Of a stretch of DNA of 42,904 nt, positions 7,738-14,125 are shown in pieces. The notes beneath the pieces are model-generated. The model was given only the letters and a program-made list of their open reading frames with translations. It was not told the DNA's origin and did no database searches. This DNA is from an uncultured Flavobacteriaceae bacterium. Lineage in GTDB: Bacteria; Bacteroidota; Bacteroidia; Flavobacteriales; Flavobacteriaceae. The number at the start of each line of letters is the position of its first letter. The stretch's first letter is position 1. A program made the position numbers and the translations under genes. The stretch covers positions 1 to 42,904 of the forward strand of contig CAJQNZ010000040.1 in NCBI GenBank assembly GCA_905479835.1. The letters run 5' to 3'.

Positions 7738-9192
7738 TTATTCTTTGGGCAATACTATTTTAAATACAGTTCCTTGCATGTCTTGTGTCGTAAATGAAAT
7801 CGTTCCATCATAGGCTTGAATAATATTCTTCACCATTGGCAATCCAAGTCCCATTCCACTTGATTTAGTAGTGAATTTTGGCTCAAATATTTTTTCTTTT
7901 ACTTCATCTGACATTCCTTTTCCATTATCTGCAACTGTTATAATAACATTGAGATTCTCTTCTACAACTTTTACTTCGATAGTAGGAGTTTTAACTTCTT
8001 CAACAGCTTGTGTTGCATTTTTCAAAAGGTTGGTGATGACTCTTGTTATTTGCATTTTATCAAGATTGGCTTGGATAATTTCCGCACTTGTATGGAAAGA
8101 AATATAGGATTCTGTGAAAATCTCTGTAGCATGTTTTACAACTTCCACAAGATTGATTTTTTCTCTTTTTTGAGTTGGCATTTTGGCAAAATCAGAAAAA
8201 GCAGAAGCAATAGAACTCATCACGTCTATTTGTTGAATAATTGTCTTACTATATTCTTTTAATTTTATGATAACATTTGGGTCCGTTGGGTCAAATTTCC
8301 GTTCAAAATTCTGAACAGTCAATCGCATAGGTGTTAGTGGATTTTTAATTTCATGTGCCACTTGCTTTGCCATTTCTCTCCAAGCTTCTTCTCGTTCATT
8401 TTGTGCCAATTTTACTGCACTCTCTTCCAAGTCGTCCACCATACTATTATAGGAGTCAACAAGATTATATATCTCTTGACTAGCATCATTTAGTACAATT
8501 TTCTCGTTGCGTTTATTCAATCGTGTTTCGCTCATTTTATCACTTACCGTTTTTAAAGATCGCGTGATGTAACTTGAAATAAAATAAGCAAGTGCAAACC
8601 CTATTAAAAATATTAATAAAAACCCTATTCCAAGACGTGCCAAGACTTCTTTTAACTCTTTATCTTGTTGGCTATTATCTTCAAGATAGGGTAAGTGGAG
8701 TATTCCTAAAGGTTTATAAATATCATCCAAAAGATAGGTGTAAGAAGATTGATATAGTTTCCCATTAATTTCTTCTGGTTCCACATACCTATGATCAGGG
8801 ATATTGGCAAGTTGTGTAAGAATATTTTTATCGATTGCAAGTATTGAATCTTGGTCGAAATCTTTATTGGACGAAATAATAAAATTACCTTGAAGATCAT
8901 AAATTTCCAATTCCAAATTATGAATCTTAGAAATATTAAAAATCTTGTCTTGAGTTCTGAAAATATACTTTAAATTTTTAGGCGAAATAATAAAACTTGT
9001 ATTCTCAAGTTCCACTCCAAGATGCTTTCGTATCGCACTTTCTTTTCGTTCTAGTCTTCCTTTATTATATTCTTCTGCTTGTTCATTGTATTGATATATC
9101 ATCACAATAGCGATCAAAATAGAGGCTACCAATACCAACAATAACATTGCTAAAAAAACACGATTTTGTAAAGAAAGTCTTTTGCTATTCAT
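7738..9192 (-). CDS. Membrane sensor histidine kinase (NtrY-like)
   Basis: 484 residues. TM1 is at about 12-32, followed by a periplasmic sensor region of about 150 residues and TM2 near 190-210. A HAMP-like linker (SSYITRSLKTVSDKMSET) follows. The HisKA domain has phospho-acceptor H280 in VAHEIKNPLTPMRL, and the HATPase domain has NLLKNA (N box), DNGKGM (G1) and SSGMGLGLPMVKN (G2). The HEIKNPLTPM form is typical of NtrY-type kinases. No response regulator is adjacent, so it is an orphan here and its partner is unknown. The SemiSWEET gene lies 67 bases upstream on the same strand. Confidence 0.92.
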   Translation of the reverse strand: MNSKRLSLQNRVFLAMLLLVLVASILIAIVMIYQYNEQAEEYNKGRLERKESAIRKHLGVELENTSFIISPKNLKYIFRTQDKIFNISKIHNLELEIYDLQGNFIISSNKDFDQDSILAIDKNILTQLANIPDHRYVEPEEINGKLYQSSYTYLLDDIYKPLGILHLPYLEDNSQQDKELKEVLARLGIGFLLIFLIGFALAYFISSYITRSLKTVSDKMSETRLNKRNEKIVLNDASQEIYNLVDSYNSMVDDLEESAVKLAQNEREEAWREMAKQVAHEIKNPLTPMRLTVQNFERKFDPTDPNVIIKLKEYSKTIIQQIDVMSSIASAFSDFAKMPTQKREKINLVEVVKHATEIFTESYISFHTSAEIIQANLDKMQITRVITNLLKNATQAVEEVKTPTIEVKVVEENLNVIITVADNGKGMSDEVKEKIFEPKFTTKSSGMGLGLPMVKNIIQAYDGTISFTTQDMQGTVFKIVLPKE

Positions 9193-9259
9193 TCTATGTA
9201 TTATGAAGTAAATATACTCAATATTTTAAGGAATAACAGCAATAAATATACCAAGAATA

Positions 9260-9517
9260 TTATTTATATCGAAACTTAAAAAAGAGGATTATACATACCA
9301 AAATTGCCGTAACAATATTGGCCAATATAATTGAAATACTATCCAAATAGATTCCATAAGTCAGCCAAAGTAGTACTCCTGTTAACATCACAAGATACAT
9401 GGATAAAGAGAGGTTTTCTACATCTTTGGTTTTCCATGTTTTAACTACTTGAGGTACAAATGCTGCTGTTGTACAAGCTGCTGCCATCAATCCAATAATT
9501 TCGATATTAAAACTCAT
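9260..9517 (-). CDS. SemiSWEET sugar transporter
   Basis: 85 residues with three hydrophobic helices, the size of a bacterial SemiSWEET half-transporter that dimerises to pass small sugars. The conserved PQ motif of helix 1 is in TTAAFVPQVVKTWKTKD, and SLSMYLVMLTGVLLWLTYG gives helix 2. Inner-membrane location and facilitated diffusion are family knowledge; the sugar is unknown. It is probably read with the downstream kinase. Confidence 0.9.
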   Translation of the reverse strand: MSFNIEIIGLMAAACTTAAFVPQVVKTWKTKDVENLSLSMYLVMLTGVLLWLTYGIYLDSISIILANIVTAILVCIILFFKFRYK

Positions 9518-9532
9518 ATTTAATTTATCTCT

Positions 9533-9562
9533 AAATGTCAGGTCGAGCGCAGTCGAGACCTT
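9533..9562. repeat. Dispersed palindromic repeat (GGTCGAGCGCAGTCGAGACC)
   Basis: TGTCA followed by GGTCGAGCGCAGTCGAGACC (9541-9560) in the spacer between leuS and the SemiSWEET gene. Same core family as 7660-7680 and the in-gene copy at 10971-11030. Confidence 0.65.
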
Positions 9563-9650
9563 GTCTTTTTTTAGTTCTCGAAAACTACGTTTCTATCTTC
9601 AAAATAAATTTCTTTATTTTTCAATAATACTCGAACAGAAAATGTTTGCG

Positions 9651-12600
9651 TTACCCTACAATATTGACAATTTTTCCAGGAACAACAATCACTTTCTTTG
9701 GTGTTCTGCCGTCCAATTGAGCAATTGTTTTTTCGTTTGCAAGTACTGCTTTTTCAAGTTCTTCTTTATTCATATCTAATGGAAACTCCAACATAAAACG
9801 CATTTTTCCATTGAATGAAATCGGATAATTCTTCGAACTTTCTACCAAATGCTTTCCATCAAATACTGGAAATTCAGCAGTTGAAATAGATGCTGTATGA
9901 CCCAATTTATTCCATAACTCTTCTGCAATATGAGGTGCATACGGCGAAATTAAAATTGCCAATGGTTCTAATATTGCACGCTTATCACATTTCAATGCTC
10001 CCAACTCATTTACGGCAATCATAAACGAACTTACCGATGTATTGAAAGAGAAATTGGCAATATCCTCATCTACTTTTTTGATGGTCTTGTGTAATGTTTT
10101 TAACTCTTCTGCAGTTGCTTTATCTTCTGATACAACAAACGTTCCTTCATCTCCAGAATGGTATAATTTCCATAATTTCTTTAAGAAAGAATACACTCCA
10201 GAAATACCTGAAGTTTTCCAAGGTTTTGATTGCTCCAAAGGTCCTAAGAACATTTCAAACAATCGCAAAGCATCCGCACCATATTCCTCACAGATTGCAT
10301 CTGGATTGACAACATTGTACTTAGATTTAGACATTTTTTCTACTTCACGAGAAACTTTAAATGTTCCATCTTCTTCTGAAATAAATTCAGCGTCTTTATA
10401 TTCTTCCCTCCAATTTTTAAAAGCTTCAATATCTAATTCATCTGATGTGTTTACAAAAGAGACATCAGAATGAATTGGAATGAAAGAACTCCAAGAAGTT
10501 TCTCCATCAGTTGCAAAACTAAAGACACCTTTTTTATCTTTATTTGAATCAACTATGGATGGTCTTATCTTTTCATATTCTGGATAATCTGTGATAGATT
10601 TTTTCTCTTTTATTGCTTTTTCGATAAATGATTTACTCACAAAAACAGATTGTTTTAATTGTGTTGTATTCAACCTATAAACAAAAGCACTCGTTCCAGT
10701 AATCATTCCTTGGTTGATCAGTTTCTTCGCAAACTCATCTACTGGAACAATATTTCTATCAAATAAGAATTTCTGCCAAAAACGTGCGTATAATAAATGT
10801 CCTGTCGCATGCTCGCTTCCACCAATATATAAATCCACATCTTTCCAATAGTCCATGGCTTCTTTACTTGCAAATTCTTCTGAATTCGTTGGATCCATAT
10901 AACGGTTGAAGTACCAAGAACTTCCCGCCCATCCAGGCATTGTGTTTAGTTCTAGTGGATAAATTCCGTTGTCTTTAGATTTCTCGCCTCTCGACTCCGC
11001 TCGAGATGACTTACTCGAAATGACAAGACTGTTATCAACAATCTCATTAGTTTTTGTATTCCATGACCACTTTTCTGCTCTTCCCAGCGGCGGGTCGCCG
11101 CCTTCGGTTGGTAAATATTTTTCAACTTCTGGCAATGCGATTGGTAAATGTTTTACATCAATCATTTGCGGCATTCCATCTTTATAATACACTGGAAACG
11201 GCTCTCCCCAATATCGCTGACGAGAGAAAACTGCATCACGCAATCTGTAATTTATTTTACCATAACCAATACCACGTTTTTCCAATTCGTAGATAGCAAG
11301 TTTTAATGCCTTCTTATATTTTAATCCACTTAAAAAATCAGAATTGGCAATAACTGTTCCTTCTTTTCCTTCATGTGCTTCTTCAGAAATATCAGCATTC
11401 TCAAAAATATTAGGAATATCAATGTCAAAATGTTTTGCAAAATCATAATCACGTTGGTCACCACAAGGAACCGCCATGACAGCACCTGTTCCGTAACTTG
11501 CCAACACATAATCTCCAATCCAAATCTGAACTTTTTTGCCCGTAAAAGGATGCTCTGCATACGCTCCAGTAAATACTCCTGAAATGGTCTTTACGTCCGC
11601 CATTCTATCGCGTTCAGAACGCTTTGCAGTTGCTTCAATATATTCGTTAACTGCTTTCTTTTGCTTATCTGTTACGATTTGAGATACCAATTCGTGCTCT
11701 GGAGCCAAGGTCATAAATGACACTCCGAAAATGGTGTCAGGACGTGTAGTAAACACCTCTATTTGGTGATTGATCGGAGTCGAAACCCCTTTTTTAGTCT
11801 TCTTTTTAGCAACTTTTTGCTGTTCTGCTATCTTTGGAAATTGAATTCCGTTATTGATTTTAGAAAGTACTGTATCTATATTTTCCAACACTTCATCATT
11901 GGTAATATACACTACCGTATATCCTTCTGATGCAAAATAATTTGCTCTTGCAATTTCATCTTCTTTTCCTACAAACTCAACAATCGTCTTTTTATTGAAG
12001 CATACAAAATCGGTCAAGAAATCACCTAAAATATATTGTTGTCTGAATTTTACAGCCCCTTTTTTCTTTCTCAACACATCCCAAAGCGCACTTGTTGCTT
12101 TTGGAGAATTTTGACGCAATTCCTTTATCTCTTCAATCTTTTTATAAGAAAGTGTTCCTTCTTTTTCTTCAGATGTTTCATTTGGCAACACTTTAAAAGA
12201 AACCATCGCTCCTTGAGAACGACCAATCCAGTTTGTCTGAGAATCTTTCAATGGCTGAGGCCAATCAATCGTATTTAATCCTTCTAAAAGACGTTGTGCG
12301 TATGCAGAAATTCGCATAGACCATTGCATCATTTTCTTACGAACTACAGGATGACCTCCACGCTCTGAAACTCCGTTGACGATTTCATCATTTGCAAGAA
12401 CAGTTCCCAATGCTGGACACCAATTCACTTCAGTTTCTGACAAAAATGTTAATCGATATTGTAATAATATTTCTTCTTGTTTTTTCTTCGAAAACTTCTT
12501 CCAAGCAGCAGCAGTAAATGATTGAATTTCATCATCACTTACAGCATTTACTTTTTTATTTCCAGCTGTTTCAAATATTGAAACAAGCGTTGAAATATCT

Positions 12601-13064
12601 TCTGCCTTGTCGGAATCTTTATTGTACCAAGAGTTGAACAATTGGATAAAAATCCATTGCGTCCATTTATAATATTCAGGATTAGAAGTACGAACTTCTC
12701 TTGACCAATCAAATGAAAAGCCAATTCTATCTAGCTGTCTTCTATATGTTTTTATGTTTTCTTCGGTCGTTTTAGCAGGATGTTGTCCTGTCTGAATCGC
12801 ATACTGCTCTGCAGGTAATCCAAACGAATCATAGCCTTGAGGATGCAATACATTAAAGCCTTTATGACGCTTATAGCGTGCATAAATATCAGATGCAATA
12901 TATCCTAATGGATGACCAACATGTAGTCCTGCTCCTGACGGATAAGGAAACATATCTAAGACATAATATTTCGGTTTATCTGAATGATTACTAGCCTTAA
13001 ATGTTTGATTTTCTGCCCAATGTTTTTGCCAATTAGCTTCTATCGCTTTGTGATCGTATTGCAT
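9651..13064 (-). CDS. leuS: Leucyl-tRNA synthetase with DUF559-like insertion in the editing domain
   Basis: 1137 residues, against about 920-960 for most Bacteroidetes LeuRS. HVGH at 48-51 and KMSKS at 910-914 form the ATP site. The CP1 editing domain opens with NWIGRSQGA (about 278-286), resumes at VFTTRPDTIFGVSFM (about 437) and keeps GTGAVMAVPCGDQRDYDF. Between these, residues about 302-407 hold an extra domain. Its LWDVLRKKKGAVKFRQQ, LGDFLTDFVCFNKKTIVEFVG and YTVVYITNDEVLENI match the DUF559/Vsr-like fold. A second insert (679-698) is a translated genomic repeat. A third expanded loop follows TSAFVYRLN (about 797-865). The enzyme charges tRNA-Leu and edits mischarged amino acids; all core motifs are intact, so the gene should be functional. 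Confidence 0.96.
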   Translation of the reverse strand: MQYDHKAIEANWQKHWAENQTFKASNHSDKPKYYVLDMFPYPSGAGLHVGHPLGYIASDIYARYKRHKGFNVLHPQGYDSFGLPAEQYAIQTGQHPAKTTEENIKTYRRQLDRIGFSFDWSREVRTSNPEYYKWTQWIFIQLFNSWYNKDSDKAEDISTLVSIFETAGNKKVNAVSDDEIQSFTAAAWKKFSKKKQEEILLQYRLTFLSETEVNWCPALGTVLANDEIVNGVSERGGHPVVRKKMMQWSMRISAYAQRLLEGLNTIDWPQPLKDSQTNWIGRSQGAMVSFKVLPNETSEEKEGTLSYKKIEEIKELRQNSPKATSALWDVLRKKKGAVKFRQQYILGDFLTDFVCFNKKTIVEFVGKEDEIARANYFASEGYTVVYITNDEVLENIDTVLSKINNGIQFPKIAEQQKVAKKKTKKGVSTPINHQIEVFTTRPDTIFGVSFMTLAPEHELVSQIVTDKQKKAVNEYIEATAKRSERDRMADVKTISGVFTGAYAEHPFTGKKVQIWIGDYVLASYGTGAVMAVPCGDQRDYDFAKHFDIDIPNIFENADISEEAHEGKEGTVIANSDFLSGLKYKKALKLAIYELEKRGIGYGKINYRLRDAVFSRQRYWGEPFPVYYKDGMPQMIDVKHLPIALPEVEKYLPTEGGDPPLGRAEKWSWNTKTNEIVDNSLVISSKSSRAESRGEKSKDNGIYPLELNTMPGWAGSSWYFNRYMDPTNSEEFASKEAMDYWKDVDLYIGGSEHATGHLLYARFWQKFLFDRNIVPVDEFAKKLINQGMITGTSAFVYRLNTTQLKQSVFVSKSFIEKAIKEKKSITDYPEYEKIRPSIVDSNKDKKGVFSFATDGETSWSSFIPIHSDVSFVNTSDELDIEAFKNWREEYKDAEFISEEDGTFKVSREVEKMSKSKYNVVNPDAICEEYGADALRLFEMFLGPLEQSKPWKTSGISGVYSFLKKLWKLYHSGDEGTFVVSEDKATAEELKTLHKTIKKVDEDIANFSFNTSVSSFMIAVNELGALKCDKRAILEPLAILISPYAPHIAEELWNKLGHTASISTAEFPVFDGKHLVESSKNYPISFNGKMRFMLEFPLDMNKEELEKAVLANEKTIAQLDGRTPKKVIVVPGKIVNIVG
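10971..11030 (-). repeat. Palindromic repeat copy inside leuS, translated in frame
   Basis: Contains CTCGACTCCGCTCGAG (10990-11005) flanked by GATGAC and TCGAAATGAC. These are the same word types as the intergenic repeats. It encodes about 20 polar residues (SSKSSRAESRGEKSK core, LeuRS 679-698) in a loop just before the conserved PLELNTMPGWAGSSWY block, and keeps the frame. Confidence 0.7.
11844..12161 (-). other. DUF559/Vsr-like domain inserted in LeuRS CP1
   Basis: Codes LeuRS residues about 302-407. DUF559 hallmarks are LW..LR, K-FR-Q, a D in LTDFVC (about 352), an E in VEFVG (about 363) and a final YITNDEVL strand-helix. D and E match the first two acidic positions of the PD-(D/E)XK-type core, but the usual H/D segment after the Glu is shortened. 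Activity is uncertain. Boundaries are estimated from where normal LeuRS sequence breaks off and resumes. Confidence 0.75.
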
Positions 13065-13086
13065 TTTTTACTCTTTTAAGAAGTTG

Positions 13087-13094
13087 CAAATTTA
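13087..13094 (-). promoter_or_regulatory. -7 box TAAATTTG for leuS
   Basis: Minus-strand TAnnTTTG match, 22 bases before the leuS ATG. Confidence 0.45.
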
Positions 13095-13219
13095 CGCTTT
13101 CTATAGAAAAGAGTGAAGCGTTTGCATCGATTAATATTTTTGGCAAATATTATGAAGTAATAAATGAATGTAATGAAAAGGTTTTTGTAATTTCACATTC
13201 ATAAAAAACCTAAATACAA

Positions 13220-14125
13220 TTGACTAAAAATCTTTACAAAGCACATTTTGCACTGCTTGGAGCCAATCTAATTTACGGTGTCAATTATATTGTTGCTAAA
13301 GGCATAATGCCTAATAAAATAGGACCTTCAGCATTTATTTTTCTTCGAATTTTAGGAGCTGGAATTCTATTTTGGTTCATCAAATCTTTTATCAAAGAAA
13401 AAGTAGAACGAAAAGATTTTTTAAGGTTAATTTTATGTGGAATCTTGGGAATTGCAGTAAATCAATTGTTATTTTTTCACGGGCTCAATTTAACTTCTCC
13501 TATTGATGCTTCCATTATTATGACTTCTCTTCCTGTAATTATTATGATTTTTAGTTTTTTTATGTTAAAAGAAAAACTAACAAGAAATAAATTGCTAGGA
13601 ATTGCTATTGGATCTATTGGTGCAATTGTATTGATTGGCTATGGCAACAAATCTGGAGGAACAAGTTCTCTTGTAGGAAATTTATTTATTTTTACTAATG
13701 CGTGTTCGTATGGACTGTATTTAGTTATTGTAAAGCCATTGATGAAAAAATACAATACCATTACAATTATCAGTTGGATTTTTCTTTTTGGATTTGTATT
13801 TATGTTTCCATTTGGGATTCAAGATCTACTTGCTACAGATTTTTCTAATTTTACCACAAGTACCTATTTGACCATAACATTTGTCATTCTTGGAACAACT
13901 TTTTTCGCCTATTTATTTAATATTTATGCTCTGAATCATGTGGCTCCATCAATTGCTGGAAGTTATGTGTATCTGCAGCCTGCAATAAGTTTTATAATGG
14001 TTGCTCTATATGCATTTGTCTTTAATCAAAAAGAATACGAGCAAGATATTAATAGTGTAAAATTGGTGAGTTGTTTATTTGTTATGATAGGTGTTTATCT
14101 TATTAGCAAAGAAAAAAATAAGTAA
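13220..14125 (+). CDS. DMT-superfamily (EamA) exporter
   Basis: 301 residues with about ten hydrophobic helices in two EamA halves (about 8-138 and 152-297). Signatures are the N-terminal ALLGANLIYGVNYIVAKG, HGLNLTSPIDASIIMTSLPV at the end of half one, and the mirrored NHVAPSIAGSYVYLQPAISF in half two. These inner-membrane carriers export amino acids or other metabolites; the substrate is not readable. No ATG lies near the start. TTG 13220 gives the full first helix and is the best choice. The stop lies inside an A/T hairpin. Its position beside the metal genes may be coincidental. Confidence 0.88.
   Translation: MTKNLYKAHFALLGANLIYGVNYIVAKGIMPNKIGPSAFIFLRILGAGILFWFIKSFIKEKVERKDFLRLILCGILGIAVNQLLFFHGLNLTSPIDASIIMTSLPVIIMIFSFFMLKEKLTRNKLLGIAIGSIGAIVLIGYGNKSGGTSSLVGNLFIFTNACSYGLYLVIVKPLMKKYNTITIISWIFLFGFVFMFPFGIQDLLATDFSNFTTSTYLTITFVILGTTFFAYLFNIYALNHVAPSIAGSYVYLQPAISFIMVALYAFVFNQKEYEQDINSVKLVSCLFVMIGVYLISKEKNK

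Follow-up and report, generated by a model that had tools for sequence, protein, structure and literature searches.

Selfish nucleases known from essential genes are removed from the gene product by the intron or the intein that carries them. Inteins with homing endonuclease domains and group I introns with homing endonuclease genes have much in common with the inserts described here: a nuclease placed inside conserved genes, a patchy presence, insert lineages that are tied to their site, and decay after fixation. They splice, whereas no splicing module was found in the DUF559 inserts that were scanned, and the domain seems to remain part of the protein. A Vsr-like fold is also used with RNA, in the RAP domains of mitoribosomal proteins. 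These are eukaryotic and their similarity to the present insert is distant, the match found here being to mitoribosome chains of Toxoplasma.

Palindromes provide another set of precedents. Rickettsia palindromic elements lie in frame in unrelated genes and are translated into protein (PMC10969869, in its accessible part). The DUF559 elements resemble them as palindromic DNA of mobile type, in frame and translated. Yet the Rickettsia elements measure about 150 bp and code for a conserved peptide that is short (same part of PMC10969869), whereas the product of the DUF559 elements is a folded nuclease whose active site is conserved; many DUF559 copies have inverted repeats at both ends, and they belong to a different phylum. 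As to in-frame palindromes inside genes, the mark of the Rickettsia elements, many relatives of the copy studied here have inverted or hairpin repeats, and that copy itself has none. REPs inside genes and REPtrons have likewise been described, the latter combining a RAYT transposase with REP palindromes: a small enzyme gene has palindromes on either side, and these are also found by themselves (PMC3733652, in its accessible part). RAYTs are tyrosine transposases, whereas the DUF559 elements have a Vsr-like nuclease fold and lie inside host reading frames.

Among nucleases, the EDxHD homing endonuclease I-Bth0305I, which is Vsr-like, shares its catalytic fold with our insert. It belongs to group I introns of phage type and is a long enzyme of several domains (PMC3943268, in its accessible part), whereas the insert consists of the catalytic fold alone and the copy studied here lacks the catalytic loop. 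Caulobacter VsrA, a stand-alone Vsr-like DUF559 protein, has been proposed as a mismatch-repair nuclease (PMC12907096, in its accessible part); both are DUF559 proteins, one standing alone and the other an insert. Among the papers listed by our literature search, conducted mostly outside subscription papers, none deals with DUF559 inserts in housekeeping proteins.

A nuclease-type domain within leucyl-tRNA synthetase

The window, that is, the whole stretch of 42,904 nucleotides that was analysed, comes from an uncultured member of the Flavobacteriaceae. Its leucyl-tRNA synthetase (LeuRS) gene has the following features.

9651..13064, minus strand: leuS, leucyl-tRNA synthetase, 1137 aa, host of the DUF559 insert
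12207..12224, minus strand: GRSQGA, CP1 motif of the host, upstream of the insert
11769..12188, minus strand: whole extra segment, about residues 293-432 (linker, DUF559, lysine-rich linker), from comparison with insert-free relatives
11847..12131, minus strand: DUF559 domain, residues 312-406, apparently a nuclease-dead copy (PF04480, AF2 model, fold match to 3hrl and 3r3p)
12009..12011, minus strand: D352, equivalent of Vsr D51, kept
11946..11978, minus strand: residues 363-373, EFVGKEDEIAR, at the position of the catalytic loop (E-x-D-G-x-x-H...D..R in relatives)
11733..11750, minus strand: TTRPDT, editing-site motif of the host, downstream of the insert, intact

The host protein matches the equivalog profile TIGR00396 with 863.7 bits, against a cut-off of 548.4, and has both the TTRPDT and the KMSKS motifs. 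It is the single LeuRS found in the genome bin of the window (G000; 1.9 Mb, 82% complete), which has one strong editing-domain match, and it carries the only DUF559 domain above cut-off in that bin. A sequence-only reading of the window had placed this domain in CP1, between GRSQGA and TTRPDT, and it is there: PF04480 covers residues 312-406 (E 1.9e-18, 66.7 bits against a curated cut-off of 20.6), and the insert matches in sequence an endonuclease-like protein, PDB 3hrl (E 6.7e-9). The correspondence that the reading gave between positions 11844-12161 and LeuRS residues 302-407 is exact, with the quoted motifs in place, but the full extra segment is wider than this span, from about residue 293 to 432. 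In the same-genus relatives L012, L014 and L023, WIG(R/K)S is separated from TTRPDT by 30, 30 and 38 residues, as against 166 in the window, which marks the segment as a genuine insertion, some 140 residues long. These insert-free relatives rule out a normal CP1 subdomain, in agreement with the reading, which was also right in stating that the flanking editing motif is intact and that D352 and E363 are present; the loop that follows is about 8 residues shorter than in intact relatives.

An AF2 model of the insert, built with 16 relatives, has a mean pLDDT of 74.4, with blocks over segment residues 61-130 at 89-92. Searched with Foldseek against the PDB, it finds 3hrl at rank 1 (E 3.5e-6, TM-score 0.85 by target), followed at ranks 2 and 3 by the catalytic domain of I-Bth0305I (E 9e-4 and 1e-3). 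Toxoplasma mitochondrial ribosome chains come after these nucleases (E from 1.6e-3), and E. coli Vsr is reached only at E 0.69. Profile and top fold match agree on the nuclease-type DUF559 fold that had been proposed. When the whole LeuRS is modelled (mean pLDDT 72.4), the insert stands apart as a domain of its own between two strands of CP1, and its linkers, 297-308 and 413-431, fall below pLDDT 50.

Each of ten genomes tested has one strong match to the LeuRS editing domain (150-177 bits). A second match, of 30-39 bits, falls in a different frame, which is 447 aa long in G000 and 878-926 aa long in the nine other genomes and which we take to be probably ValRS. Since the fused LeuRS is the sole LeuRS of each of the ten genomes, it is presumably functional; the same count led us to discard the idea that LeuRS is inactive and a second gene makes up for it.

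DUF559 inside other proteins of Bacteroidota

At least 121 of the 299 genomes of the family have a DUF559 match (1e-5 or better), and many of those listed lie in long frames, of about 346-395, 848-865 and 1038-1282 aa. In the LeuRS loci that we read, the domain is found both at the window's site and elsewhere in the protein; one LeuRS of 1386 aa (L317, in genome G688) has two, one at the window's site and the other further along the editing domain. Bearers at the LeuRS site include Polaribacter, Tenacibaculum, Lutibacter, Cellulophaga baltica, Leeuwenhoekiella marinoflava, Gillisia marina and Maribacter halichondriae, the filled leuS of the last (L153) having its motifs in different frames of the record. 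MetH has inserts at two sites of its C-terminal half (with full-length MetH further out in the phylum), RecG has one between DEQH and TATP, and IleRS, a UvrD-type (RecB-like) helicase and AroC are further in-frame hosts. There are also fusions rather than inserts, C-terminal in HisD and N-terminal in HemD. Further out in the phylum, the hosts comprise IcmF, an M23 peptidase, HsdR, HsdM, Eco57I-type and type ISP proteins, and C-terminal fusions are found in an N-formylglutamate amidohydrolase (FGase) and a PurL-type glutamine-amidotransferase protein. Profiles confirmed the host names of a number of examples (10 proteins with NCBIfam, 8 and then 6 with Pfam); the remaining names rest on blastp to these examples or on resemblance. 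Among the 33 best matches (at least 138 bits) of a scan of 345 genomes of the phylum, six are short stand-alone frames, so that life inside proteins is not absolute.

The fusions at the N-terminus of HemD (uroporphyrinogen-III synthase) come from nine genomes (L067, L077, L079, L083, L087, L088, L089, L091, L095; the profile check covered L083 alone) and form one clade of the DUF559 tree. DUF559 is also frequent inside restriction-modification proteins of type I, type ISP and Eco57I type (L173, L175, L177, L178, L179, L299-L304, L306, L311, L312), several of them named by resemblance; those included in the DUF559 tree belong to its other main clade.

Two other identities were tried and set aside. 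That it is a known defence protein was rejected for want of any PADLOC match at E up to 1. As for carriage by phages or plasmids, a DUF559 match was found in three phage records, at 38% identity or less, and in 34 plasmid records, at best 52%, with none of Bacteroidota among the 15 records and the 10 genus names listed.

Signs of a mobile unit

This family of in-frame nucleases preserves the host frame, is patchy in its distribution, is often bounded by repeats, and in one case has been duplicated as a unit. The duplication is found in a metH gene of genome G250, where two DUF559 copies at different sites are alike at 345 of 418 bases and both limits of the 418-bp match fall at an inverted repeat, AGCCCCCC..CCCCCAAAGGGGGAGC. 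A search for closely related species with filled and empty sites for this double insert covered a genus with one genome and gave no such pair. In many live copies the flanking linkers are palindrome-encoded peptides, SFPKGE and PPSGARG for example. Inverted-repeat scores of at least 14 were obtained for 33 of 108 in-protein copies other than those of the window's own type (hereafter window-type), as against 1 of 540 control places; the count was 7 of 24 for short stand-alone frames and 0 of 16 for window-type copies, and about two thirds of the in-protein copies tested fell below that score. L140, L182, L194 and L295 were left out of this test. A second draw, also without L298, L313 and L316 (host doubtful), gave 31 of 105 in-protein copies, 7 of 24 stand-alone frames, 2 of 525 controls and 0 of 16 window-type copies; the host of L298 was later identified by Pfam as a glutamine-amidotransferase protein, and L313 holds a masked run. 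In one genome, G905, a UvrD-type helicase gene contains a copy (L293), another copy follows an amidotransferase gene (L298) and two are short stand-alone frames (L307, L308); the right ends of these four match pairwise over 36-54 bp at 81-88%.

The insertion sites themselves were compared in LeuRS, MetH and RecG, without any clear target-site duplication, the relatives being much diverged; in filled MetH loops, some host residues are missing. Conservation of the flanks places the insertion site in the top 24% of windows in LeuRS and in the top 8.5% in RecG; this is above average without being extreme, and no more than moderate evidence of homing. An intein or an intron was rejected: scans with Pfam and NCBIfam at the thresholds used revealed no splicing (HINT/intein-type) domain, and Rfam gave no group I or II intron at gathering threshold in five element loci and in the window at 9000-14000.

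Histories of insert and host

The DUF559 tree is a quick one, based on a short alignment of 116 copies, four of 120 having been dropped (L140, L182 and L194 as duplicates or near-copies, L174 as degenerate). A branch with SH-aLRT 97 has on one side 82 of the 116 copies, hosted by LeuRS, MetH, RecG, IleRS, UvrD-type helicase and HisD, and none of the 19 stand-alone frames of the set. Copies group by host gene and site, with 20 label changes as against 74.4 in shuffles. The 16 window-type inserts make up one clade (SH-aLRT 100), whose stem is long, at 1.41 changes per column. Live inserts from the LeuRS site often lie near each other.

For the host, 106 LeuRS loci were tried, 104 of which had both motifs (L147 and L152 were missed); after removal of L133 and L197 (short) and of L140 (duplicate), 101 rows were used for a quick tree. 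Presence and absence of the insert change 22 times on this tree, at least 10 of the changes being forced by well-supported branches, and 26 changes are counted when window-type and live inserts are told apart. A careful tree of 30 rows rejects the union of 15 window-type hosts in one clade (p-AU 0.00026), for a group that was chosen after the first tree had been seen. Two pairs of sister hosts combine a window-type with a live insert: Lutibacter L138 and L139 (100/99), at the same site, and another pair with support 98/86. A comparison of LeuRS with and without the insert, proposed in the sequence-only reading, thus ends in a conflict between insert and host trees. In LeuRS, the gene for which both histories were compared, presence at one site is patchy and the history of the insert is unlike that of the host; the conflict there points to replacement or re-insertion, as homing predicts.

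Filled and empty sites coexist within a single genus, g146. Of its 91 genomes searched for RecG, 86 gave a match and 4 have the insert; in the remaining 82 the match is limited to the part after the insert, and all 26 of these that were read directly have an empty junction, with remnant-like peptides in three (L232, L233, L236). The LeuRS site is filled in seven genomes of the genus (71 searched, 69 with a match, that of G707 to DUF559 only), while direct reading of 23 other LeuRS loci showed no DUF559 at the site and, in several of them, short in-frame repeats in its place. Four near relatives of the window lack the LeuRS insert (L012, L014, L023, L024).

When empty, the CP1 site of LeuRS is a hotspot of short repeats that keep the frame and are of several unrelated kinds, AAAGTCGAAAGTC and TTTCAAGTTTC among them (L203, L206, L209, L213, L215-L217, L219, L225, L027).

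Loss of the catalytic loop and retention of the domain

As a reference of five positions we used the catalytic residues that were proposed for Caulobacter VsrA from a predicted structure (PMC12907096, in its accessible part). The Vsr-equivalent E, D, D, H and D are present in 8, 16, 0, 0 and 0 of the 16 window-type rows, as against 104, 104, 104, 100 and 103 of the 104 other rows (84 from within proteins, 20 from stand-alone frames, with three duplicate rows kept). Thus all 16 window-type copies have lost the D of ExDG, the H of DGxxH and the last D, and in the window the first catalytic E is replaced by T (KATSALW). Where the catalytic loop should be, the alignment reads EFx(G/A)Kx(D/E)E in all 16. 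The motifs have decayed separately in two other LeuRS inserts, L174 and L201; decay after invasion has been described as the usual course for homing endonuclease genes (PMC13405050, in its accessible part).

With dS near saturation, dN/dS of the insert is about 0.11 in the seven closest sequences, as against 0.05-0.07 in host regions, 0.27 over all 16 window-type copies, and 0.18 in 15 live LeuRS inserts. To judge from its sequence, the window copy looks like a dead DUF559 nuclease, a retained or domesticated descendant that is under purifying selection, for which folding constraint alone may account.

A probable selfish nuclease tolerated in host proteins, and rival readings

The window insert is probably a nuclease-dead and retained descendant of a family of selfish elements. 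A captured selfish endonuclease domain, one of the alternatives offered by the sequence-only reading, is well supported, mainly by relatives: their in-frame copies, their inverted repeats, the 418-bp unit and the tree conflict. As to how the family lives, we lean, with more reserve, towards a palindrome-bounded unit of about 0.4 kb, coding only for a Vsr-like nuclease, that would home into conserved housekeeping genes of Bacteroidota and stay there as an unspliced in-frame domain of the host protein; it may also spread its terminal CCCCC..GGGGG palindromes, and in the window the nuclease would be dead and the domain fixed in LeuRS. Under the first and more probable of these two readings, the intact element, also of about 0.4 kb, would consist of a DUF559 frame without a start or a stop of its own, between inverted palindromic repeats; it would lie in loops next to important motifs of housekeeping genes, in phase with the host frame. 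Since it would be translated along with its host as an additional domain and not spliced out, the host gene would provide for its expression and keep its frame open. The nuclease would nick or cut alleles or sites without the element, and repair would then copy the element into the cut site, as in homing, new sites being reached by rare jumps. Once fixed, copies would decay: in the clade of the window, catalytic loop and repeats are gone, and the folded domain is kept within an essential enzyme and evolves under purifying selection. What we infer from comparison of the copies is mobility and DNA cleavage, and with them the copying of the element into empty sites by way of its nuclease, hosts that tolerate the domain where others would splice it out, and the eventual death of the nuclease.

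Much of this would be superfluous if the domain were an ordinary old fusion with LeuRS, inherited vertically and occasionally lost. Such a history would agree with the DUF559 tree, in which live inserts from the LeuRS site frequently lie close together, yet it is made improbable by the 22 presence/absence changes of the quick host tree, at least 10 of them forced, by the different insert types at one site in the sister Lutibacter hosts, and by the occurrence of the same family, with inverted repeats, in many unrelated genes. A better candidate, if still a rather unlikely one, makes the nuclease a passenger: palindromic repeats would be moved by a REP-type transposase or by recombination, and DUF559, serving repair or defence, would be carried along. 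The same LeuRS sites are indeed occupied by short repeat peptides without DUF559, and TnpA-REP is believed to mobilise the REPs of other systems (PMC8266576, in its accessible part). A passenger would however not account well for catalytic residues that hardly vary over 104 copies, of which 84 lie in unrelated host proteins, for a fold near that of a homing endonuclease, or for the grouping of in-protein copies by host gene and site.

Domestication, which is compatible with a selfish origin, concerns the present role of the window copy: the dead domain would have become a useful RNA- or tRNA-binding subdomain, RAP-like, beside the editing site. We regard this as a tentative possibility, the strongest of the rivals considered. 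It draws on the purifying selection, on the signature common to all 16 window-type copies, on a mean net charge of +2.8 in these 16 inserts as against -1.9 in 20 live LeuRS inserts, and on the structural matches to Toxoplasma mitoribosome chains. Four near relatives do without the insert, which must then be dispensable or easily replaced, and a low dN/dS also follows from folding constraint alone in an essential protein, so that a useful function is no more than possible. That the copy might still be an active nuclease, on tRNA or DNA, coupled to LeuRS had been suggested by its fold and by the presence of D352 and E363. With three of the five Vsr-equivalent positions absent in every window-type copy, this suggestion finds no support, and we consider such an activity extremely improbable.

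If selfish nucleases of this kind do home into housekeeping genes, they illustrate a further way of life for homing elements in essential genes, one in which host proteins seem to tolerate an extra nuclease domain, and in one genome even two in a single LeuRS. They would be a source of new domains for old enzymes, and a candidate for the enzyme behind the spread of palindromic repeats in Bacteroidota. DUF559, a domain of 'unknown function' in Pfam, would be given a testable role. The steps from parasite to part would be visible within one enzyme, the window standing at the end of the life cycle of the element.

Further repeats in host genes

Some observations accompany this work. The locus of a metH that bears DUF559 has a SAM riboswitch (L070:7416-7563). 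At the N-terminus of MetH, L072 and L093 have repeat peptides without DUF559, SPLGRKGGARPLKLSGLEP and PPLGARGLKLSGLEP. In the window, leuS contains a second in-frame palindrome-like repeat, SSKSSRAESRGEKSKD, at 10974-11021 (LeuRS residues about 682-697), before NTMPGWAGS. Of the 17 rows compared at this place, 13 others have no apparent repeat, L004 has a shorter form of it, and L009 and L023 have repeats of other kinds. In L148 and L152, it is DUF559 that is found there.
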